Shown one piece after another: positions 10,483-57,872 of a DNA stretch of 58,571 nt. The translations under genes and the position numbers were made by a program. The notes under the pieces were generated by a model. That model had not been told where the DNA came from and did no database searches. It worked only from the letters and a program-made list of their open reading frames with translations. The stretch spans positions 1 through 58,571 of IMG/VR virus record IMGVR_UViG_3300030060_000055. One strand, given 5' to 3'. The first letter of the stretch is position 1. The number at the start of each line of letters is the position of its first letter. Source of the stretch: a virus.

Positions 10483-10518
10483 AATAAATCAACATGTTTA
10501 AACAACAGGAGAAAAAAT

Positions 10519-27139: not shown

Positions 27140-30100
27140 ATGGCAGACGAACCAAGAAACACACCAAATCCTTTTGAGATATTTGGTTCAAATACTGGTA
27201 ATGTACCTGACCAATTTGATATTTTTGATACATATCAAAGACCTCCAACACAAGACAATACTTCCGAGCAACTAGGCACTGATAAAGTTAATGATAGATC
27301 ATTACCTATATTTGGTCTTGCTACAAATAACTTTACCCCTGAAGAAAACGATTGGATAGACAGCGTTATAGCTGCACCCAGAGGTGTATTGCGTGGTGCT
27401 GCAAGAACTATACCCTTATTAGGTGAAGGTGTATGGGGCATATTAGATTTAGCAACTAACCTTTCAGGAAAAGAAGATTGGTTGAATCCTAGAGAAAGTG
27501 CATTCATAGCTAGAATGGATGAACTGCGTGATGCTATTGGCTATGAAGATAGTGTAGCTGGTAGAACAGGTGAAGCATTAGGTAGCATACTAGGTTTTGT
27601 AGGGTCAACTATACTTACAGGTGGTGCTGGAGCAGCATCAAGAGTAGGTGCTGGTTATAACGCACTAAAAGCTGGAGAGTTAACTGCTGGGGCAGCAACT
27701 AAAAGTTTAGCATCAGCTATGCAAATAGCAGCACCGGGTTCTGCTATAGGTGTAGGAGAAGCTAGTGGAAGGATGCGTGAGTATGAAGCTGAGATAGGTG
27801 AAGATTTATCTATAGCAGATAGAAACTTGGCAACAGCACTTGCTATACCTTTAGGTGCAACAGAGGTACTACCTATAGTTAGACCTTTATCTATATTATT
27901 TTCTAAGATAACTAAACGAGGATTGCCTAAAGAAACTATTGATAGCTATATGGATTTAGCTAAGTCAGCTGCCATAACTGGTACAGCAGAGGGTGTGCAA
28001 GAAGCATTAGCAAGTATAGGTCAAGATGCTATTGAGAAGGGTGTATATAACGAATCAGCAACTATAGGTGATTCTATAGCATCAGAGTTTGGATATGGTG
28101 GTGGTGCTGGTGCTATCTTTGACTTAGGTGTTAACTTACTTACTAAAGGTAGACCAAGAGGAGGTAGACCTGTTGGACCAGTAGAAGATGATACAGGTGG
28201 ATTATCAGGAACAGAAGCTACAGAGGTAGAAGATGCATCTACTTTAGATGAAGGTAGACCTAACACAGTAGCACAGTTTCAAGGTAGTGAAGAGATAGTA
28301 TTAGATAATGAATTTGAAGTGCCTAAAGATGCAGAGGGTGATGCGGTAATACCTCCTGATGTAAAAGTTGATGATGAAGTAGATATGTATGATGCTCTTG
28401 GCAATTCATACAAAGCTAGAGTTACTGCCGTATCAGATTCTGGTAGCATAAAAATTATAAATCAACAGGGTGAAGAAGTTGTTGCAAATATGAGTCCTAC
28501 AGCAACTACATCTAATGTTAATAATCCAAATTATGAGTTTAAAACAGTAAGCCCTGCATTTAAAAAGTCTGTTAATAATAAAAAAAATGTAAGTGAGTTA
28601 AATGAACAAGAAATAGCAGCAGCACAACTTGCATTAGAAGCACGTATTGAAGAGGCTGGTATTCAATTGATTGGGTTAGATGCACTACAAGATTTAAACG
28701 CTCTCAAACTACATCAAAAAAGAAGACAACAACCTTTAGATACAACTGTTGAGAATCAAACTAAATTAGGACCACAACAAGAAATAGAAGCACAAGCACA
28801 GGCATTTAAAGATGAAGTGCCAACAATACCTGATGCTGAAGAACAAATAAAAACAGAAGCTGTAAGACAACAGTTACAAGAAGTAAGTCCTGAACTGCAA
28901 GCAAATTTAGATCAAGAGGTAGAACTTGAAAGGCAAATACAACAAGCAGAAGATGCTGACAATTTGAATGAAGCAGATGATTTAAAAGAAAAAATAAATC
29001 AAGTAAAAGATAAACAAACAGAGTTAATTAAAAAACAAAAAACACCTATAAGAAGAAGTAGATTAATACAAACTTTTAATAGACCAGATGGTGAGACATT
29101 TACAGCAAGATTTCCTGATAGAGAAAGTGTAGATGCATTTAGTAATAAGAATGTAGTTAAAACTAAAAACAAATTAAATTTAACTACACCAGCATACAAT
29201 CAGTTTAAAACTAAATATGATTCTTATGTAGCTGAAGAAGTTAACTCAGCATATAAATCTGATACAAGAGAATTTAAGTTACAAAGCTTTAGAGACTTTG
29301 TGGCACAAGAACAAGGTTCAGTACAAGTAGGAGATATATTAAGTCAAACAACTCTTAAGAATATTGATCCTAATGATGCAGCGTTTAAACGATTCTTGTA
29401 TCTAAATACAAAGAAAAGAAATTTAAAAGACTTAAATGGTCTACAAAGAAAAGAAATTTTCAGACAAATAGAAGCTTTGCCTACACAAACAGCAGTCAAT
29501 ACAAGTATAGATAAAGCATTTAGTGAAAGCATAGATAATAGACAAGCATTTAGTAAAGCTGAAGCTATAAAAGCTAGAACTAAAGAGTTAGAAAATAAAT
29601 ATACCAAAGCACAACTATTAGATTTAGCTAAAACTAATGGTGTAAGTGAAGAGTTTATACAAGATGCAGTAGGCACTAGAGACAAAACAACTATAGCAAA
29701 AGGTATAGCAAGAAAAGAAATACAGAATCAAATATCAGCAGAAGAAAACTATGAACAAGTTGTAAGTAGAAGTGTTCCTAATGTACAAGTTAGGAAAGTA
29801 AAAACTAAAGCAGCTGACCAAGCAAGAGGATTTCAACAATATAGTGTGTTATATCCTGATGACACAATTATAAAAACTTTAGTGCCAGCAAATATAGATG
29901 TTGCAGATGCAAAGGAGCAAGCAGCTAGACAAACATTTACACAAAGAGTAGAAAGATTAGAAGAAGAAAATATAAAAACTAAAGATGTACCAGATGCATC
30001 ACAACAAGATTATATACAGGCTGTTACTAACTCACTGTTTAAACGCACTAACCCATTAGCAGAATTATTATCTATAGCTGGACCACAAGTAAAACAAAGT

Positions 30101-33100
30101 AGAACACCAGCAATACAAACAGAACAAGTCCAAGACCTAATAGAAGAAGCACCGCAGTTAGAAGCACCTGATCTATCTGGCATTAATTATCAGGGAAACT
30201 TATATAAGTTTAAAGACAATATAAATGCCAGTGATTTTATAATGAATTTAAGGCGCATAGCTAAAAGAACTATGCCTGATGCAGATGTAGTTGCAGTAGA
30301 TACATTGTTTAATGAAAGTGGTGAAGAAGTAGCTGGTGTAACTATTGGTGACATAATAGCTATAAATTTAGAAACTAATCCTGAAAATGGTAGACCTAGA
30401 TTTGCTTCACCTACAGATACTGTCTATCACGAAGCTGTTCATTACTTTATAAATAATAATTATTTTAAACCAGAAGTTTTACAAATCTTAGCTGAGAATC
30501 AACAAAGAATATTTGATATAGCTGAGACAAGATTTGGTGGAAAAGTAGGTACTTTTGAAGAAGCTGTTGCTATAGCATCAGGATATTACAACGAACAAAA
30601 ACTACAAGGCAGAACCCCTTTTGAATTTACACCCGGAATAAGAAGAGTATTTGAACCTCTATTTAAATTTTTTAATCAGGTTGCTAAATACTTTAGTGGC
30701 AAAAAATATAGGAAACTAGAGGATGTATTTGATGCTATAAGAACAGGTGATTTATATCAAGATGCTGTAGATAATCCTAAGATACTTAGTCCACCACAAC
30801 AACAGTTCCAAGAAGAATTGTTTAAACAAACTGGATATGTAGGCTCATACAAAGGCGGATCAATAACAGAAGATATGAATCTTGATTATGATTCAAATAG
30901 AAACATGACACCTTTGTATAGCAGAACACCTTCTTTTGGTTTACAAGAACTAAAGATTAGTGAAATGGGTCAAAGGATTGATAGGTTACAAGATGCTGTA
31001 AATAATACTAAAACTAAATCTACTAAAGCAGATAAATGGTTAACAACTAATAAACAAGGACAAGAGTTATTAACAGGCTCTAACGTGCCTTTTAATAAAC
31101 TTTACCTACAAGATACTAGATTAGATGAATGGTTGTCAGAACAAGTTAATGAAGATGGCAATCCAAGAGAAGTAAGCATAGATGAAATAAAAAATTATTT
31201 AAAAACTAATACTGGTTTTATATCTATGCAAATGACAGGCGGTGATACTACAACTTATGTAAGAGCAACTAATATAAATGAACAACAAACTATAGAGTAT
31301 TATCAAAATGAAATTTTAAATAGCACTATAGCTTTAAATCAATTTACGTCAGGTGTGCAATCACATTTAGTTAATAGGGATGATACATATAAAGCATTAA
31401 AAGAAGAGTTTTATACAGGACCAGACGATCAAGGTTCAGGAGCATTCTACGATTTAACAAGAAATTTAGACCAAATAGAAGAGTCTTATAAAAAATTAAA
31501 TCTTTCTATGAAACAACCTATAGGAAGAAACTTTGATGTTTTAAGACAAGCATTAAATGTAGAAACTAAATCACCTGATTTTCTTTTTTCAGATGCTAAA
31601 GCTGGAGAAATAGAGACAGCTATAAATCAATTAACTGTATCAGGGCAGTTGCTACAAAATACAGATGCTCTAAGAAAGGCTGATCCTGATGGTCATTTAG
31701 AAAAATTTTTAGTAGCTTTAGAAAATAATAAAATAGTTAGTGATCCTATAATAGAAATATTAGATGAGATAAATACAGACTCATTTGATGGCGGTAATAG
31801 GTACAATAAATTAGATTTACAAGATAATAAATTAACTCAATTAGTTAATGCAAGAAATCAAGCAAAAAGACAAAACGAATATTTTACAAGGTTGTTATAT
31901 GGAGAGGGTACAACAGGTGAACTTAATCCTGTAATAAGATCATCATTTGAATCTGCTGGATATGCAACAACTCCCGGTTTTAACATAGATACTACAAGTG
32001 GTAAGTTTACTGATATACAAAGATTAGCATTTCAAGCTATTAAAGATGGCAATCCTAATAAATCAGAAGGACAAATAATACAAGAACGTCTACAAGGAAT
32101 ACCACAAGAAGTTGCAAACTTTACAGAAGATCAATTAGCAGAGTTTACACGTAGACGTAGATTTGATGGTGAAGATTATGGAACTACAGTACACGTAGAA
32201 AATAGTAGAAATGTTGTTTACGCTTGGAATCCCGGTGCTTCGCAAGAACAAAAAGGATACTATTCAAATCCACATTTTCCTAACTCTATACGTAACGCTT
32301 TTGTTCATGCAAGAATAAAAGATGTTTATGTATTAGATGATAATAATACTTTAAAGAAAATATTATTTATAGATGAAGTGCAGTCTGATATGTATGCAGA
32401 TGTAAAGAAAGCTATAGACAAATACTTAAATGAATTAAATGATGGTGATCCTAGAAAAGAAGGAGGTGCATCTTCTTTGACAGAAGCAGAAGTAAAAGAA
32501 GCATTAGAAGGTTATCCAACTACTCAAGATATGCCAGCTGTACCACTTATAGGATTTCCTAAACCTAACTTTAATAAGTGGCAAGATTTTATTATTGAAG
32601 AAATGAATATGCTTGCTGTTAATGAAGGGTTTGATGGCATAGCTATTGCTAGTACAGCAATACAAGCAGAAAGAAATGGTAATAATCTTAAGAACAATTT
32701 TAACTTTTTAAGTTTTTATCCTTCAGTAAAACCATCAGATATTTCTACCAATCTTAGTACAGAATTAACTCATACTCCTTCTGGACAAACAGTAGAAGAA
32801 AGCACTTTATTACAACAGGGATATTTAACACAAGAAGAATTAAATCAAGACGATCCTGTTACTCCTAAATTTATTAGAAGTGCAGCAGCACAATATTTTG
32901 GTGATGTATTTTCAAGAGATACTAACTCATATGAATTTAAAACATATGTAAATTATGCACGTTTAGTAGGTATGACAGATGGATTTATTACTAAAGATAT
33001 GACTTTATCTTTACAAGAATCTAATCCTATTCGTGGGCATTTTGTAGATGGTGTGAATTATTTAGGTAGAGGTATTGGAGAGACACAAGTAGGTAGTGTA

Positions 33101-36100
33101 TCTTCTATATTACCAAATGATCTTGCTGATTTAATTATAGGTCAAATACAAAATGGCATCAGATCAAATATGCAAAGACCTGATATCAATGTAATTACAC
33201 AACAAGAAGCTAGGCAAGATCAAAATAATAATTTAACTATTGATACTTCAAGGTTATTACGTAATGCAGGTAATCAATCAGCTATAGGTGCTGGATATAT
33301 AAACTTAAGAAAGTTAACTGATAATCAAACACAACAGTTTTTTTCTAAGTCAGGATGGGATATATATAGCAATACATACCCTAATAAAATTAAAAAATCT
33401 TTAGATAAACTAGGTATTAAATATGAAACACAAGGTCAATCTGTTAAGGAAATAATACAAGATATATTTGGTGCAGATTCTGATGTGACTATTAATAATG
33501 TAGTAGATAGAGACTTTCATTCTAATAGATTATATCAAGCACCATATGACGAGTTAGTAGAGCAAGAACAATTTACTGTAGATGAAGTTATATTTAGAAC
33601 TAAATCTGAAATAGATGCTAGAAAAGGTAAACCTTTATTACTACAAACAGCATTTAAAGATAATGCTAGATTGCTTTATAGAGGTGAGCCAGCAAAGAAA
33701 CATCAATCAAGATTTAATGTGCCAGTATTTACTTTTGAAAGTGATGCACAAGTAGTAAACAACCCAGCGAAATATTCTAGTACACCAGCAGATGCACAGA
33801 AAGCTAGTTATTGGAAAAGAATTGTAAACTTTTTAGGTAACCTTACAGAGAGTAAATACTTTAGTGGTCTTGGTAATCTTGAACAAAGAAAAGAATATCA
33901 AAGATTAAAAGGATTAACTGCTGGTGAAATTAATAAAGCCGAAAAAGTAGCTAAAGATTTTTATAATGATCTAGGACAATATCTTAATCCTAGAAAATCA
34001 CAAAAAACTAAAGAAGAACTTAATAGAAATGTACAACAGTTTAATGCTTTTATAGAGGGTGGCATGGATGCAGACCCTGCACTTATAACAGATGAAGGTT
34101 TAAGAAAGGTTGCTGTTAAAAGTAAACAAGCTATAGATAGAATAGGACAGATGTTAGTTCAAAGAGGTGTACTACCTAGATCAAAGTTTGAAGAAAATAG
34201 AGGAACATATTTACCTTTGTTATATATGAAACATATTCTTAATAATCCAACAGGTACTAAGTTTTCATATACAAAAGCTAGGAAAGATTTAACAGATGAA
34301 ACTAAATTAATACTAGGTGATATAACAGAACTATCACCAGAGTATAGAGTTCTTGCTGGTGTACAAAGACCATTGCGTGATATGGCAATATTAGATTTTT
34401 TTAATCAAGTTTCTAAGAATCAAAACTGGGCAATACGTAATGATGATATGTTAGTTACTATTGAACAAGGTGGAGTAGAACAAAAGGTAAGTGCTTTGTG
34501 GTTATTAGAAGAAGCTAAAAGATTACAAGAACAAGCAACTTATTTTGAGAATGGTCAACCTGAACAAGCACTAGCTATGAGAAATCTTGCACAGCAATAT
34601 GAACAACTAGGAATGCCTGTAGCAGAAAGACTAGGATATGGTGCTGATAAACCATTAGATGAAAACTTTAAGAGACTACCTACTACTAAACAGTATGGAA
34701 TGATGAGAGGTGTGGCTGTAAGAAAAGAAATTTATGATGATGTCATAGGTACTTTTACTATGGGTGATACTGATAATGCTTTTAGTAAAACCATAGCTGC
34801 TTTAGAAAAAGGCACAAGTATTTGGAAACTTCTTAAAGTACCACTTAACCCACCAACTGTAGTACGTAACGTAGGTTCTAACATGATACTTATGAATATA
34901 GTTGGGGGTGTGCCTATACATAAAGTATTGCCTAGAATGAGACAAGCTATAGAACAAATAAGAAGTAATGGTAAGTATTGGAAGATAGCTGAAGATTACG
35001 GCATACAAAATACACAGTTTACAAATCAAGAAATGCTACAAATAAGTGAAGAGTATTTAGATTTGTTACAAGAAGTTGATCCACTAGGACCAGTAGCTAA
35101 GTTTTTTAGACTGCCAAAATTGTTAACTGCTAGAGTATTTAAAACTGCTGGTGATGTATATCAATTTACAGAATCTGTAGGTAAGACAGCAGTAATAATA
35201 GATGCTATGGAAAGACAAGGCATGTCAGAGTTTGATGCATTTCAACTTGCACAGAAAGCTTTGTTTGATTATTCCGATGTACCTATGGCTGGTAAGTTAT
35301 TTAGGAAAGCACCTATAGGTATGCCTTTCTTTACTTTTTATTACAAAGCATTTCCAGCTTTAGTTGAAGCAGCTATTAATCATCCATTTAGATATGCACC
35401 ATACGTAGCCTTATCAGCTGGACTTACTGCTTTATCTGCATATGCATTTGGTTTTGAAGATGATGAAGAAGAAAAGTTACAAAAAGGATTAGAGCCTTGG
35501 CTTGCTAAAAGAACAGGTGTTTATGTACTGCCTTTTAAAGACAGTGATGGAAGATATCAATTTTTAGATATAGGATATTTCTTTCCTTGGACTATGTACA
35601 CAGATGCAGTAAGAGATATAGCTGGTGGTGATTTCTTTGAAGCACAAAGGACAACAGGATTTTTATCAGGACCTTTTTCAGATATTTTCCTAGCAATTAA
35701 AACTAATAAAGACCCGTTTACACAACGTACTATATGGGATAAACGTGATCCTGTAGAAGATAGAATACAAAATATGTTTTGGTATATGTATAGTTTAGGT
35801 ATGCCTTCATGGTTAACACCTAATGGTGCTATAAGTAAAACTACTAAAGCATTACAAGATATACCTAGACCAACAGGCGCACCAGCAGATACTGTGCCAC
35901 AAGCATTGTTACGTTTTGTTGGAGTAAACGTATATGGATTAGATACAGAAGAAACTAGGATAAGAAATATTAAGAAGATGAGACAAGAGATTCTTGATAT
36001 ACAACAAAGATTTAAGTATGCAATGGCAAATCAATCTTATACACAAGAAAAGAAAGATAGATTAAGACAGAGATACATGCAGATGATTAAAGAAAAAGTA

Positions 36101-36181
36101 GATTTATTGCAAAGGTATAAAATAGATACAGCAATACCAAGACATATATTAGAAAGGGAGAGTAAATTCCAAGATGGATAG
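27140..36181 (+). CDS. giant polyvalent internal virion protein
   Basis: 3013 residues, the largest gene. The N-terminal 330 residues are hydrophobic helices (SILGFVGSTILTGGAGAASRVGAG), a likely membrane-interacting ejection region. A zinc-metalloprotease-like HEAVH is at 1097-1101. Around 1720-1830 ILFIDEVQSDM and NEGFDGIAIAST match a module found in large polyvalent phage/plasmid proteins. The C-terminal third (SIWKLLKVPLNPPTVVRNVGSNMILMN, then a hydrophobic stretch near 2755) resembles the LPD38-type tail end. Such proteins are injected with DNA and carry several effectors. No phage N4-type RNA polymerase motif was seen. Confidence 0.8.
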   Translation: MADEPRNTPNPFEIFGSNTGNVPDQFDIFDTYQRPPTQDNTSEQLGTDKVNDRSLPIFGLATNNFTPEENDWIDSVIAAPRGVLRGAARTIPLLGEGVWGILDLATNLSGKEDWLNPRESAFIARMDELRDAIGYEDSVAGRTGEALGSILGFVGSTILTGGAGAASRVGAGYNALKAGELTAGAATKSLASAMQIAAPGSAIGVGEASGRMREYEAEIGEDLSIADRNLATALAIPLGATEVLPIVRPLSILFSKITKRGLPKETIDSYMDLAKSAAITGTAEGVQEALASIGQDAIEKGVYNESATIGDSIASEFGYGGGAGAIFDLGVNLLTKGRPRGGRPVGPVEDDTGGLSGTEATEVEDASTLDEGRPNTVAQFQGSEEIVLDNEFEVPKDAEGDAVIPPDVKVDDEVDMYDALGNSYKARVTAVSDSGSIKIINQQGEEVVANMSPTATTSNVNNPNYEFKTVSPAFKKSVNNKKNVSELNEQEIAAAQLALEARIEEAGIQLIGLDALQDLNALKLHQKRRQQPLDTTVENQTKLGPQQEIEAQAQAFKDEVPTIPDAEEQIKTEAVRQQLQEVSPELQANLDQEVELERQIQQAEDADNLNEADDLKEKINQVKDKQTELIKKQKTPIRRSRLIQTFNRPDGETFTARFPDRESVDAFSNKNVVKTKNKLNLTTPAYNQFKTKYDSYVAEEVNSAYKSDTREFKLQSFRDFVAQEQGSVQVGDILSQTTLKNIDPNDAAFKRFLYLNTKKRNLKDLNGLQRKEIFRQIEALPTQTAVNTSIDKAFSESIDNRQAFSKAEAIKARTKELENKYTKAQLLDLAKTNGVSEEFIQDAVGTRDKTTIAKGIARKEIQNQISAEENYEQVVSRSVPNVQVRKVKTKAADQARGFQQYSVLYPDDTIIKTLVPANIDVADAKEQAARQTFTQRVERLEEENIKTKDVPDASQQDYIQAVTNSLFKRTNPLAELLSIAGPQVKQSRTPAIQTEQVQDLIEEAPQLEAPDLSGINYQGNLYKFKDNINASDFIMNLRRIAKRTMPDADVVAVDTLFNESGEEVAGVTIGDIIAINLETNPENGRPRFASPTDTVYHEAVHYFINNNYFKPEVLQILAENQQRIFDIAETRFGGKVGTFEEAVAIASGYYNEQKLQGRTPFEFTPGIRRVFEPLFKFFNQVAKYFSGKKYRKLEDVFDAIRTGDLYQDAVDNPKILSPPQQQFQEELFKQTGYVGSYKGGSITEDMNLDYDSNRNMTPLYSRTPSFGLQELKISEMGQRIDRLQDAVNNTKTKSTKADKWLTTNKQGQELLTGSNVPFNKLYLQDTRLDEWLSEQVNEDGNPREVSIDEIKNYLKTNTGFISMQMTGGDTTTYVRATNINEQQTIEYYQNEILNSTIALNQFTSGVQSHLVNRDDTYKALKEEFYTGPDDQGSGAFYDLTRNLDQIEESYKKLNLSMKQPIGRNFDVLRQALNVETKSPDFLFSDAKAGEIETAINQLTVSGQLLQNTDALRKADPDGHLEKFLVALENNKIVSDPIIEILDEINTDSFDGGNRYNKLDLQDNKLTQLVNARNQAKRQNEYFTRLLYGEGTTGELNPVIRSSFESAGYATTPGFNIDTTSGKFTDIQRLAFQAIKDGNPNKSEGQIIQERLQGIPQEVANFTEDQLAEFTRRRRFDGEDYGTTVHVENSRNVVYAWNPGASQEQKGYYSNPHFPNSIRNAFVHARIKDVYVLDDNNTLKKILFIDEVQSDMYADVKKAIDKYLNELNDGDPRKEGGASSLTEAEVKEALEGYPTTQDMPAVPLIGFPKPNFNKWQDFIIEEMNMLAVNEGFDGIAIASTAIQAERNGNNLKNNFNFLSFYPSVKPSDISTNLSTELTHTPSGQTVEESTLLQQGYLTQEELNQDDPVTPKFIRSAAAQYFGDVFSRDTNSYEFKTYVNYARLVGMTDGFITKDMTLSLQESNPIRGHFVDGVNYLGRGIGETQVGSVSSILPNDLADLIIGQIQNGIRSNMQRPDINVITQQEARQDQNNNLTIDTSRLLRNAGNQSAIGAGYINLRKLTDNQTQQFFSKSGWDIYSNTYPNKIKKSLDKLGIKYETQGQSVKEIIQDIFGADSDVTINNVVDRDFHSNRLYQAPYDELVEQEQFTVDEVIFRTKSEIDARKGKPLLLQTAFKDNARLLYRGEPAKKHQSRFNVPVFTFESDAQVVNNPAKYSSTPADAQKASYWKRIVNFLGNLTESKYFSGLGNLEQRKEYQRLKGLTAGEINKAEKVAKDFYNDLGQYLNPRKSQKTKEELNRNVQQFNAFIEGGMDADPALITDEGLRKVAVKSKQAIDRIGQMLVQRGVLPRSKFEENRGTYLPLLYMKHILNNPTGTKFSYTKARKDLTDETKLILGDITELSPEYRVLAGVQRPLRDMAILDFFNQVSKNQNWAIRNDDMLVTIEQGGVEQKVSALWLLEEAKRLQEQATYFENGQPEQALAMRNLAQQYEQLGMPVAERLGYGADKPLDENFKRLPTTKQYGMMRGVAVRKEIYDDVIGTFTMGDTDNAFSKTIAALEKGTSIWKLLKVPLNPPTVVRNVGSNMILMNIVGGVPIHKVLPRMRQAIEQIRSNGKYWKIAEDYGIQNTQFTNQEMLQISEEYLDLLQEVDPLGPVAKFFRLPKLLTARVFKTAGDVYQFTESVGKTAVIIDAMERQGMSEFDAFQLAQKALFDYSDVPMAGKLFRKAPIGMPFFTFYYKAFPALVEAAINHPFRYAPYVALSAGLTALSAYAFGFEDDEEEKLQKGLEPWLAKRTGVYVLPFKDSDGRYQFLDIGYFFPWTMYTDAVRDIAGGDFFEAQRTTGFLSGPFSDIFLAIKTNKDPFTQRTIWDKRDPVEDRIQNMFWYMYSLGMPSWLTPNGAISKTTKALQDIPRPTGAPADTVPQALLRFVGVNVYGLDTEETRIRNIKKMRQEILDIQQRFKYAMANQSYTQEKKDRLRQRYMQMIKEKVDLLQRYKIDTAIPRHILERESKFQDG

Positions 36182-54835: not shown

Positions 54836-56089
54836 TTACACACCAGCTTCGGTACGAATCCTCTTCACAGTATCATCATCCAAGCCACCAAATACGTACT
54901 GACTAAGCACATCCTCCATGTCACATCCATCAAGTATTGCACGACCACCCTTGATGCTTGCTCTAGGTGATATGACACAACGTATCTTCATGTCATCCTT
55001 TGCCTTACGTAATTTCTGTACGATCTTCGTAAAGTTCCTATCAGGACTGATCTTCAACTCAAGCTTTTCATCATAGTCAAGGCTGATGACTGGCTTGAAT
55101 CTGTCAATGGTTGCACCATCAAGTTGATTCCTACCTACGTACTCTCTGTCTGCACCTCTACCATATGTGTTGGCACATGCAATCAAGCGGAAGTTCGGAT
55201 GTTTCTTGACCACTCCACATGGGAAGTCAGCTACGTCATTCTCCATAGATGCATTGAGAGCAACCAATGCTTGTGGATTAGAACCATCGATTTCATCGAA
55301 CAGGAACAAACCACCATCACGAAAGCACTTAACGAATGAGGACTCAACGTAGTTGCCATTGGCATCCATGTAACCTCTTACTTCGTAAGCTTGGAACATA
55401 GCACCTGACATACCGAATTGGTAATCATCTTGGTCAAAGGCTTTGCCTAACATGTCTGTCAACTGCGTAGCCATTGTGGTCTTACCACTACCGGCACCGC
55501 CTACAAGAAGTACGTTATCACCACGTATCAAGGCTTTGAGTACCTGTGGCAACTTCTCATGCATGAGACCATCAAACTCAACCGCACCGCTAGGCTTGGG
55601 TATCTCAACCACAGTCTTACCACCGCCATGCTTTTCAATCAGATCAACGATCACCTTTTCATTGACACCATCGTGGCAACCATCATCCAATGTTGGATGC
55701 ACCTTCTTGATGATATCAACGATCTCTTTCTCAAGAGCGTTCTTAGGCTCATACTCCGGAGGAGTATCAGACTCACCATCGCCATCAGACTCATGCTCGG
55801 ACTCGGACTCGGAAGAATCATCCTTTTCACCATCTGCATCATCTGCATCATGTGGCTCTGCATCACCGCCATCGCCATCATCTGCATCAGCTTTTAGCTG
55901 AGCGATATCAATGTCGTTGTACAGAGCGATGAGTTCCTCATCGGACATCTGACTAGCACGTTTGCCATAGGCAACTGCTAACTTTTTAAGAACCCTACGC
56001 TCACCATCGGTGAGAGTATCCAATGTGCAAGGGAAACCGAACATTGCTTTAGCACTTTCAGCAATGCTGAGGATTAAATCTACATTCAT
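54836..56089 (-). CDS. MoxR/CobS-like AAA+ ATPase
   Basis: 417 residues. N-terminal helical domain, a strongly acidic D/E/S linker (68-112), then an AAA+ core: Walker A GGAGSGKT (197-204), Walker B LFLFDEID (261-268), sensor region FRLIACANTYGRG. This resembles the CobS/MoxR chaperone-like ATPases that remodel or metallate partner proteins with a VWA subunit. No cobalamin gene is present, so a cobaltochelatase role is unlikely; partner remodelling is more plausible. Confidence 0.82.
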   Translation of the reverse strand: MNVDLILSIAESAKAMFGFPCTLDTLTDGERRVLKKLAVAYGKRASQMSDEELIALYNDIDIAQLKADADDGDGGDAEPHDADDADGEKDDSSESESEHESDGDGESDTPPEYEPKNALEKEIVDIIKKVHPTLDDGCHDGVNEKVIVDLIEKHGGGKTVVEIPKPSGAVEFDGLMHEKLPQVLKALIRGDNVLLVGGAGSGKTTMATQLTDMLGKAFDQDDYQFGMSGAMFQAYEVRGYMDANGNYVESSFVKCFRDGGLFLFDEIDGSNPQALVALNASMENDVADFPCGVVKKHPNFRLIACANTYGRGADREYVGRNQLDGATIDRFKPVISLDYDEKLELKISPDRNFTKIVQKLRKAKDDMKIRCVISPRASIKGGRAILDGCDMEDVLSQYVFGGLDDDTVKRIRTEAGV

Positions 56090-56112: not shown

Positions 56113-56703
56113 TTAAACAACGAACAGACTATCAGTCTGCTCACAAGCCGGACATGGTGCAGTTTCCATATCTAGCATAGCTACGTTCTTACGACTCGTA
56201 CGAAAGTGAAAGTCGCAACTACCACAGGATACTTTCAGCATCCTAGTGGACTGTTTCTTTGTGAAATCGATATCGATTGCCCCATGTGGGTAGTCTCCTA
56301 AGAGACCAAGCACACCATCAATCTGCTCCTTCAAGCGGTTACCGGCATGGGTAGAGGTAAGCTTGCCCTCAAGACCAATCTTCCTCGCTAAGCGAGAAAA
56401 TCTGCCCTTGTGACCACTCTCATTCTTATCCACCACATGAACAAGTTCATGTGCAAGTATTTCCAATGCTTGAAAGCCATCGTCAATCACAGGATTGATA
56501 AACACTTCAAAGTGATTATCACTTGATGCATCAGCATGTATGCAGACACCAAGCACCTTACCACCTCGGTGACGAGGTGCATATCCAACAGACACCCTGT
56601 AGGGTGGCATGTCATCCCAATGACCATCATCAATCGAAAAGATAGAGATCAGTTGATCCGCACCTTCGGTGAGCCAAGCCTCACGATCAGTATAATTTTC
56701 CAT
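56113..56703 (-). CDS. SprT-like zinc metallopeptidase
   Basis: 196 residues. The zinc motif HELVH (85-89) with a further His at 98 (ESGHKGRF) and conserved LARKIGLEGKLTSTHAG identify the SprT-like family, followed by a C-terminal zinc ribbon (CGSC...CPAC). SprT/SPRTN relatives degrade DNA-bound proteins. Its leader carries the hairpin at 56723-56764 and the AACTGGAG site. A GTTTAAAC palindrome overlaps its stop codon. Confidence 0.8.
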   Translation of the reverse strand: MENYTDREAWLTEGADQLISIFSIDDGHWDDMPPYRVSVGYAPRHRGGKVLGVCIHADASSDNHFEVFINPVIDDGFQALEILAHELVHVVDKNESGHKGRFSRLARKIGLEGKLTSTHAGNRLKEQIDGVLGLLGDYPHGAIDIDFTKKQSTRMLKVSCGSCDFHFRTSRKNVAMLDMETAPCPACEQTDSLFVV

Positions 56704-56722
56704 AGTATTCTCCAGTTGTTTA

Positions 56723-56764
56723 GTTTAAATACTCTCTTCACTATGTTCAGAGAGTTATTTAAAC
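56723..56764 (-). other. leader hairpin A with GAAC(A/G)TAGTGA loop
   Basis: Arms GTTTAAATACTCTCT (56723-56737) and AGAGAGTTATTTAAAC (56749-56764) pair along 15 bp with one bulged base; the 11-base loop on the transcript reads GAACATAGTGA. It ends 19 bases before the SprT-like start, followed by AACTGGAG. The element at 57240-57279 has a different stem but the same loop. No T-run. Confidence 0.65.
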
Positions 56765-56776
56765 AAATTGTTAAAG

Positions 56777-57208
56777 TTAAGAGCCAATGTGTACTTGAAG
56801 TACATCACCTCCTTTTAGGTCAAGGTCTCTATCAGCAAAGCTGTATGCACCTTCTTTTGCTTTAGCAAAATTCTCTATAAAGTAGCCATGATATCCGGTC
56901 TGCTTTAGCAGTTCGTCTGTTGCTTTCATCACAGACTCAACATCCCAATAGCCATCTTTTACGATGGCTTTCGTAGATGATGCATGCCACAGACGTTCGT
57001 AGGCATTCATGCCCTTCATCCGGTCAAACAATCCGGTATCAATTAATTGACAACTGATGAGAGTGTACTCTCCATCAGGTAAGTCAGAGTAAGTCCAACT
57101 ACTCTCGTCAAGGCTTTCAGCCTTCGTGCCATAGTCAGGAGTAGACCACACCACTCCATATTTTTCCTCAAGCTTTTCAAGCTTGTCAGCAGATATATTT
57201 CTATCCAT
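56777..57208 (-). CDS. hypothetical protein, first gene of leftward block
   Basis: 143 residues, MDRNISADKLEKLEEKYGVVWSTPDYGTKAESLDESSWTYSDLPDGEYTLISCQLIDTGLFDRMKGMNAYERLW, mixed alpha/beta. As the promoter-proximal gene of a 7.5-kb early block it may be an immediate-early host takeover factor. No family recognised. Leader hairpin at 57240-57279, ribosome site AACTGGAG. Confidence 0.65.
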   Translation of the reverse strand: MDRNISADKLEKLEEKYGVVWSTPDYGTKAESLDESSWTYSDLPDGEYTLISCQLIDTGLFDRMKGMNAYERLWHASSTKAIVKDGYWDVESVMKATDELLKQTGYHGYFIENFAKAKEGAYSFADRDLDLKGGDVLQVHIGS

Positions 57209-57239
57209 TCTGTTTCTCCAGTTGTTGTTTAGGGGATTA

Positions 57240-57279
57240 GGTTTAAATCCCCTTTCACTACGTTCAAGGGGTTTAAACC
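57240..57279 (-). other. leader hairpin B with GAAC(A/G)TAGTGA loop
   Basis: Arms GGTTTAAATCCCCTT (57240-57254) and AAGGGGTTTAAACC (57266-57279) pair with one bulge; the loop on the transcript is GAACGTAGTGA. It lies in the 5' leader of the gene starting at 57208. Compared with hairpin A, the inner stem has changed on both sides (CTCTCT/AGAGAG to CCCCTT/AAGGGG) while the loop differs at one base, pointing to selection on RNA structure. Confidence 0.65.
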
Positions 57280-57316
57280 AATCCTCTTTACCATTTTCAT
57301 TCTCTCAACATTCTCC

Positions 57317-57345
57317 ATGGTAGCGTAGGACATTATGCACGTCAA
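57317..57345 (-). promoter_or_regulatory. possible leftward promoter for second early block
   Basis: On the minus strand: -35 TTGACG (57345-57340, 5 of 6), 17-base spacer, -10 TACCAT (57322-57317, 4 of 6). It would drive genes 57208 to 49654 and give a leader of about 100 bases that includes hairpin B. Weaker than the promoter at 47166-47194. Confidence 0.5.
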
Positions 57346-57394
57346 CTACTGATTGAATGTGGGGTTGCCGAAGGAAACGAATTGATCTACGTTT

Positions 57395-57414
57395 AGGTAT
57401 GATTTATCATACCT
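57395..57414 (+). promoter_or_regulatory. palindromic operator-like site at terS start
   Basis: AGGTATGAT, TT, ATCATACCT: a perfect 9-base inverted repeat ending two bases before the terS ATG (57417). It contains TATGAT, a possible -10. It could be a repressor/activator operator for the late genes or an RNA hairpin masking the start, since no Shine-Dalgarno sequence is visible outside it. Confidence 0.55.
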
Positions 57415-57416
57415 CC

Positions 57417-57872
57417 ATGACAGATCAAAAGACAAAGAACCCCATAGGTACACTAAGCGTCAAAGAACGCTTATATGCTAGGTATAAGGCTCAAGGCTAT
57501 TCCAATGGCAAGAGCGCAGAGTTAGCCGGATACAAGGGCGGTACAAGTGCAGAAAAGCAAGGCTACAGACTGTCCAAAAAAGCTGATATACAAGACGAAA
57601 TCGCAAGGATATTGGCGGAGCAAGAGACTAGGTCTCTTATTGATAGGGAATCACACCTCGATGAACTGGCAAAGCTAAGGGATAAGGCGGTTGATACAGG
57701 GCAGATCGGCTCAGCAGTAACTGCTGAACATTACCGAGGCAAGGTAGCTAACTTATATACCGAGAGACTAGAAGTCTCAGATGCTAATAAGGAGTCCTCC
57801 GATGAGATAATGACTCGTATCAGTAAACTGCTTGGCAAAGAACAGACCGATAAAGATTCATCTTTACACTAG
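57417..57872 (+). CDS. terS: terminase small subunit
   Basis: 151 residues from ATG 57417 (MTDQKTKNPIGTL). Terminase_2-like features: LSVKERLYARYKAQGYSNGKSAELAGYKGGTSAEKQGYRLSKKADIQDEIARIL is an N-terminal helix-turn-helix for pac recognition, then a helical oligomerisation region and a C terminus for the large subunit. An in-frame ATG at 57357 has no ribosome site. It lies 420 bases before terL. Confidence 0.85.
   Translation: MTDQKTKNPIGTLSVKERLYARYKAQGYSNGKSAELAGYKGGTSAEKQGYRLSKKADIQDEIARILAEQETRSLIDRESHLDELAKLRDKAVDTGQIGSAVTAEHYRGKVANLYTERLEVSDANKESSDEIMTRISKLLGKEQTDKDSSLH

Follow-up and report, generated by a model that had tools for sequence, protein, structure and literature searches.

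Structured leaders at early phage genes are already a known kind of element. The RNase III processing hairpins of early phage mRNAs (T7, SP82) are long hairpins that lie at early-gene junctions just before ribosome sites, with several per early region, and we know of no shared conserved cap among them of the kind described below. The put RNAs of phage HK022, which act on elongating host RNA polymerase to give terminator read-through, are paired stem-loops. The early phage genes themselves usually carry host takeover and counter-defence functions. As a general precedent, the half-life of an mRNA is set by stem-loops at its 5' end and by ribosome sites close by, and stabiliser stem-loops of this sort stand in the 5' leaders of E. 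coli ompA and other genes (review: PMC7509114). The promoter hairpins of phage N4 are DNA elements having a stem of about 7 bp (PMC4496689), and the N4 P1 template oligonucleotide carries a GAA loop on the template strand (PMC12633501).

The locus studied here lies in the window, the whole 58,571-nt stretch of DNA that was analysed, and contains two hairpins, A and B. The genes that they head are on the minus strand, and hence the functional reading is the reverse complement of the plus strand. The features, in order of reading, are:

57317..57345, minus strand: putative sigma-70-like promoter TTGACG-17-TACCAT upstream of B, from a consensus scan
57240..57279, minus strand: hairpin B, leader of the 143-aa ORF; the stem extends to about 57231-57287
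57255..57265, minus strand: conserved loop of B, GAACGUAGUGA
57216..57219, minus strand: GGAG ribosome site 3' of B, with 11 nt between it and the extended B stem
56777..57208, minus strand: 143-aa ORF headed by B; in relatives this slot holds variable cargo
56723..56764, minus strand: hairpin A, separating the 143-aa and 196-aa ORFs
56738..56748, minus strand: conserved loop of A, GAACAUAGUGA
56710..56713, minus strand: GGAG ribosome site 3' of A, 9 nt from the A stem
56113..56703, minus strand: 196-aa ORF headed by A; PHROG 6361, HELVH motif
54836..56089, minus strand: AAA ATPase, next in the operon; PF07728, PHROG 249

On the minus strand A reads GTTTAAATAACTCTCTGAACATAGTGAAGAGAGTATTTAAAC, then TAAACAACTGGAG..ATG(56703), and has the parts GUUUAAAUAACUCUCU-GAACAUAGUGA-AGAGAGUAUUUAAAC, whereas B reads GGTTTAAACCCCTTGAACGTAGTGAAAGGGGATTTAAACC, then TAATCCCCTAAACAACAACTGGAG..ATG(57208), and has the parts GGUUUAAACCCCUU-GAACGUAGUGA-AAGGGGAUUUAAACC. 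The two have the loop U-GAAC(A/G)UAGUGA-A in common and their stems differ with full compensation. After each hairpin comes UGGAG, at a distance of about 10 nt or less, and then AUG. An earlier sequence-only reading had reported both hairpins, their shared GAAC(A/G)TAGTGA loop and the ribosome sites behind them. All were found, with the loop, read on the minus strand, occurring only twice in the window and a GGAG about 10 nt downstream of each hairpin. Its description of the hairpins as preceding consecutive early genes stands for the consecutive genes, and the word early follows from gene order alone.

The 40-42 nt elements A and B fold better than 200 of 200 shuffles (z -4.7 to -4.8) and the extended B stem (57231-57287) reaches -27.4 kcal/mol (z -6.4); these shuffle-tested folds were computed on the plus strand, and identical stems form when the minus-strand leaders are folded. 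A together with its flanks is less striking, as 5% of shuffles fold equally well. When the window was scanned with a covariance model only A and B were found, at 44.3 and 43.7 bits, the next match (14.4 bits) being the antisense of A. An intrinsic terminator was considered and rejected because no U-run follows the stem, and there were 0 terminator-like sites at 56600-57460.

The conserved core of the element is U-GAAC-R-N-A-GUGA-A, the loop plus a U-A closing pair. From base-pairing rules the cap may be drawn as the U-A closing pair, G.A and A.G mismatches, an AC/GU mini-helix and an R-N-A triloop (R, purine; N, any base). Loop variants that fit this drawing are the four-base loops GUAA and UUAA and an AU/AU mini-helix. 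The triloops AAA, GAA and AGA were recovered by the covariance model though absent from its seed; the sequences tolerated overall are GUA, AUA, AAA, GAA and AGA plus GUAA and UUAA. The outer GTTTAAA/TTTAAAC stem, which the sequence-only reading had counted among the shared parts, is present and typical of the window clade, but it weighs less as evidence than it appeared to, because these arms consist of GTTTAAAC, which with 30 copies (1.9 expected from base composition) outnumbers every other 8-mer in the whole genome, and many related copies of the element have quite different outer stems. The palindrome itself is found both inside and outside genes (for example at 10496, 54824, 56111 and 57271), has 28 copies in the relative G001 and 0-2 copies in the examined parts of HTVC023P, HTVC027P, 023Pt_psg01 and DSL-LC04, and resembles some sort of recognition site.

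In the window clade, where the search pattern left the inner stem free, 98.9% of the cells were paired and six of the eight pairs showed double changes; 0 of 500 shuffles did as well and slid controls were 40-59% paired. Compensatory changes in excess of shuffles are what a structured RNA is expected to show, and they bear out the compensating changes that had been seen in A and B. Among 39 diverse copies there were 59 double-change cells and 0 cells changed on one side only, although in most of these copies the inner four pairs were partly fixed by the search pattern. Hence, the clean tests are that of the window clade and that of the outer arms, for which the copies were chosen mostly without reference to those arms. 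The outer arms paired with their own partners at a mean of -15.5 kcal/mol, versus -4.9 with swapped and -6.4 with shuffled partners, and in 30 of 47 copies no foreign arm paired equally well. Stem change is also recent, with both arms in step: copies whose downstream genes are 97-98% identical have the stems CTGTCT/AGACAG, CTCTCT/AGAGAG and CTTCCT/AGGAAG, each fully compensated.

Stem length across the copies is 14-22 pairs. A property that went beyond the earlier reading is the near absence of G-U pairs from the stem, an unusual feature if only RNA were under constraint: of the outer stem pairs 1.1% are G-U, versus 14.2% in terminator-like hairpins of the same contigs. Any of three causes would produce such a deficit: strong selection for duplex stability, a DNA-level function, or correction of one arm templated by the other within the hairpin. 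A whole-genome hairpin census was too noisy and was left out of the results.

The element also extends well outside the clade of the window. Scans of IMG/VR found the window-type hairpin in 34 contigs, the same loop on a C/T-rich inner stem in 106 contigs and RVA loop variants in 85 more, whereas a reversed control pattern found 0 contigs (versus 106). Thus, a lack of further copies in relatives, which the sequence-only reading had named as telling against the element, was not what these scans gave. The copies are polarised. In two sets of unique long-stem copies, 66 of 70 and 57 of 69 had a sense ATG ORF 10-80 nt downstream, and 12 and 19 had an ATG ORF on the other strand. This bias for sense ORFs indicates that the element belongs to the gene behind it, and no such bias was seen for bacterial copies of the loop (16 sense versus 12 antisense). 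Genomes have 1-5 copies, usually several per operon and about 0.4-3 kb apart, and in all eight records examined the hairpins were on the strand opposite most long (structural) ORFs. Copies both with and without a Shine-Dalgarno site were found. No clear copy was seen in the examined parts of the annotated relatives HTVC023P, HTVC027P, 023Pt_psg01 and DSL-LC04. Short BLAST matches were followed to Pectobacterium phage Ymer, where the stretch examined is not such a hairpin, and to several crAss-like phages, where the three stretches opened were all inside annotated genes.

Upstream of B the consensus scan placed the candidate promoter, which would start a transcript about 30 nt before the hairpin; the scan gave four such matches in the region versus 2.2 expected by chance, and related contigs have the same TTGAC(A/G)..TANNNT arrangement. 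In relatives the spacer of this promoter (57317-57345, minus strand) holds a conserved GCATTATGTCC-like stretch, possibly a candidate operator. Between B and A the relatives (L003-L036) have 1-3 small unrelated genes from about eight families, while on one side of this slot the B leader is constant and on the other the A leader and the 196-aa gene behind it. Two relatives (L023 and L029) have no slot gene between the leader hairpin and the 196-aa-type gene. As the same B leader stands before several unrelated first genes, the leader is not gene-specific. The 196-aa ORF gave no Pfam match and by inference may be SprT-like.

The window is nearest to the HTVC023P-type podoviruses (terminase 55-57%). 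Among the other phages that carry the hairpin, the G002 helicase is related to Maribacter and Cellulophaga phage helicases and the G011 portal resembles those of Arthrobacter phages (25%). Given such diverse similarities, the hosts of these phages are putative. The window also has a 3013-aa ORF (27140-36181, plus strand) that gave no Pfam, PHROG or PDB sequence match, and giant ORFs (2600-4100 aa) are present in several other hairpin phages.

What was observed is a hairpin of defined structure, covariation, position and polarity that is general across cargo genes and phages, which accords with the earlier proposal of a structured leader element under selection: the loop is fixed, the stems compensate, the position is before the ribosome site and many further copies exist. 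The most likely reading, to which we assign a probability of roughly 0.4 from sequence data, is that A and B represent the same RNA element twice: a portable hairpin of early mRNA by which the message below it is insulated, stabilised or given a processing point. The element lies in the leader and at the first gene-to-gene junctions of early phage operons, immediately ahead of the ribosome site, where it presumably is transcribed and acts as RNA. Once transcribed, the hairpin would fold at once, keep the adjoining ribosome site single-stranded and mark the start of an mRNA segment, blocking decay. Alternatively, it may be a processing point for a host RNase that leaves a defined, protected 5' end. 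In either case it would serve whatever gene is inserted behind it. Stabilisation of mRNA and binding of a protein or ribosome, the candidate roles of the sequence-only reading, remain putative.

Both classes of described leader differ from the portable early-mRNA hairpin in part. The T7 and SP82 hairpins are alike in length, junction position and multiple copies, and a stem of 14-22 pairs would be compatible with RNase III processing, but the near-perfect Watson-Crick stems of the phage element are unlike theirs. With stabilisers of the ompA type it shares a stable 5'-leader stem-loop adjoining a ribosome site. However, those are leaders of single genes whereas the element recurs as one family before many genes of unrelated phages, and unlike them it would be about 30 nt inside the predicted B transcript. 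Moreover, the loop is conserved beyond the need of a pure stabiliser, AC/GU being strongly preferred over GC/GC. This preference, together with the lack of common stable caps, suggests specific recognition. The GC-paired variant (16 contigs versus 106 with AC/GU) was considered as evidence for generic loop stability and set aside, as it is rare and not polarised. Scarcity of G-U pairs could reflect a DNA-level constraint or palindrome-correcting mutation rather than RNA selection alone. A more sweeping proposal, which we think rather unlikely, would be that one conserved host machine (the ribosome, RNA polymerase or a processing RNase) recognises the GAAC-RNA-GUGA cap across bacterial phyla, whatever perfect stem carries it, unrelated phages having spread or re-evolved the cap as a general licence for early expression and the stems being kept perfect by rapid arm-to-arm correction.

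The cap is specific beyond what a pure stabiliser would require, which makes a conserved host binding factor the leading rival. Here the GAAC-RNA-GUGA cap would be read by such a factor, by the ribosome or by a small phage protein, and would control early-gene translation. The fixed GAAC...GUGA on freely varying stems, the preference for AC/GU over GC/GC and the adjoining ribosome sites all argue for it, but the triloop tolerates the many sequences given above and copies occur with and without a Shine-Dalgarno site. No protein family was common to all eight phage records (blastp, 1e-4), and thus a phage partner would need to be small or very diverged. We consider control by a bound factor unlikely, though it deserves attention before the explanations that follow.

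An RNA that acts on elongating host RNA polymerase for terminator read-through, as put RNAs do, would likewise be sense-oriented, in an operon opposite the structural genes and behind a sigma-70-like promoter (that upstream of B), and it would operate in unrelated phages without a shared protein. Antitermination of this type would, however, need neither up to five copies per operon nor tight coupling to a ribosome site, and the element is a single hairpin rather than paired stem-loops; we regard it as improbable.

A poor but not negligible candidate is a DNA element of the REP/MITE-like, mobile or repetitive type, or else a seam at which early-gene cassettes recombine; the RNA structure would then be incidental. 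The perfect palindromes and the hairpin-bounded slot with its changing genes, absent in L023 and L029, are in its favour, as is the presence of the same loop in dispersed bacterial repeats. The REP/BIME-like bacterial repeats with GAACGTAGTGA or GAGCGTAGCGA loops have the same loop letters and a C/T-rich inner stem, but unlike the phage element they are dispersed, unpolarised to gene starts and often in inverted pairs, whereas phage copies are strictly oriented before start codons. No Y1 transposase of the REP/RAYT kind was found in 13 phage records, the controls being positive in five genomes, and stems that differ between copies are poor substrates for recombination. In Gemmataceae contigs (L208, L212, L219, L241, L285 and other loci) the same loop is found in inverted pairs about 79 bp apart, which recur across the genome in REP/BIME-like fashion.

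The G-U deficit led us to consider a promoter of the phage N4 kind, a DNA hairpin used by an RNA polymerase that is packaged in the virion. Like the N4 hairpins the element has a small conserved loop (of C(GNA)G type), a variable stem and a few copies near early genes, and the 3013-aa giant ORF without known relatives might be thought to encode the polymerase. However, that ORF has no polymerase motifs, B already has its putative sigma-70-like promoter, the loop is purine-first, of RNA type and on the coding strand rather than the template strand, and the stem is 14-22 pairs rather than the short stem of N4. No such polymerase was found: a PF00940 search of 16 records gave no single-subunit RNA polymerase match, a weak result as the controls were silent too. 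An N4-type promoter is thus very unlikely. The last explanation is chance, or else a recent DNA duplication in which A arose from B, the latter a possibility raised by the sequence-only reading should the flanks prove identical. The shared GTTTAAA arms, which reflect the genome-wide octamer, are in its favour. It is nevertheless practically dismissed, since the inner stems and flanks of A and B differ with both copies retained in relatives, and well over 100 copies exist elsewhere with zero in the reversed control.

As far as tested, a single capped-hairpin family common to unrelated phages is undescribed. A literature search with the loop letters in both senses, in a corpus with most subscription journals outside its coverage, gave only unrelated papers, and in Rfam 15, searched at strict and at loose thresholds, the window had no match at the gathering threshold, the best weak match being 18.1 bits against a cut-off of 35. 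Few undescribed RNA families are shared by unrelated phages, and the genes marked by this one are early genes. The hairpin could be used to locate early operons and anti-defence cargo in uncultivated viruses, and a host machine that reads it, if found, would reveal a common solution to early expression among phages whose hosts differ. Fourteen further contigs gave only tRNA, tmRNA, pistol and hammerhead matches in Rfam. Among the multi-hairpin contigs, L416 (12123-12382) and L417 (2267-4233) include matches to tmRNA, the pistol ribozyme and the type II hammerhead ribozyme.
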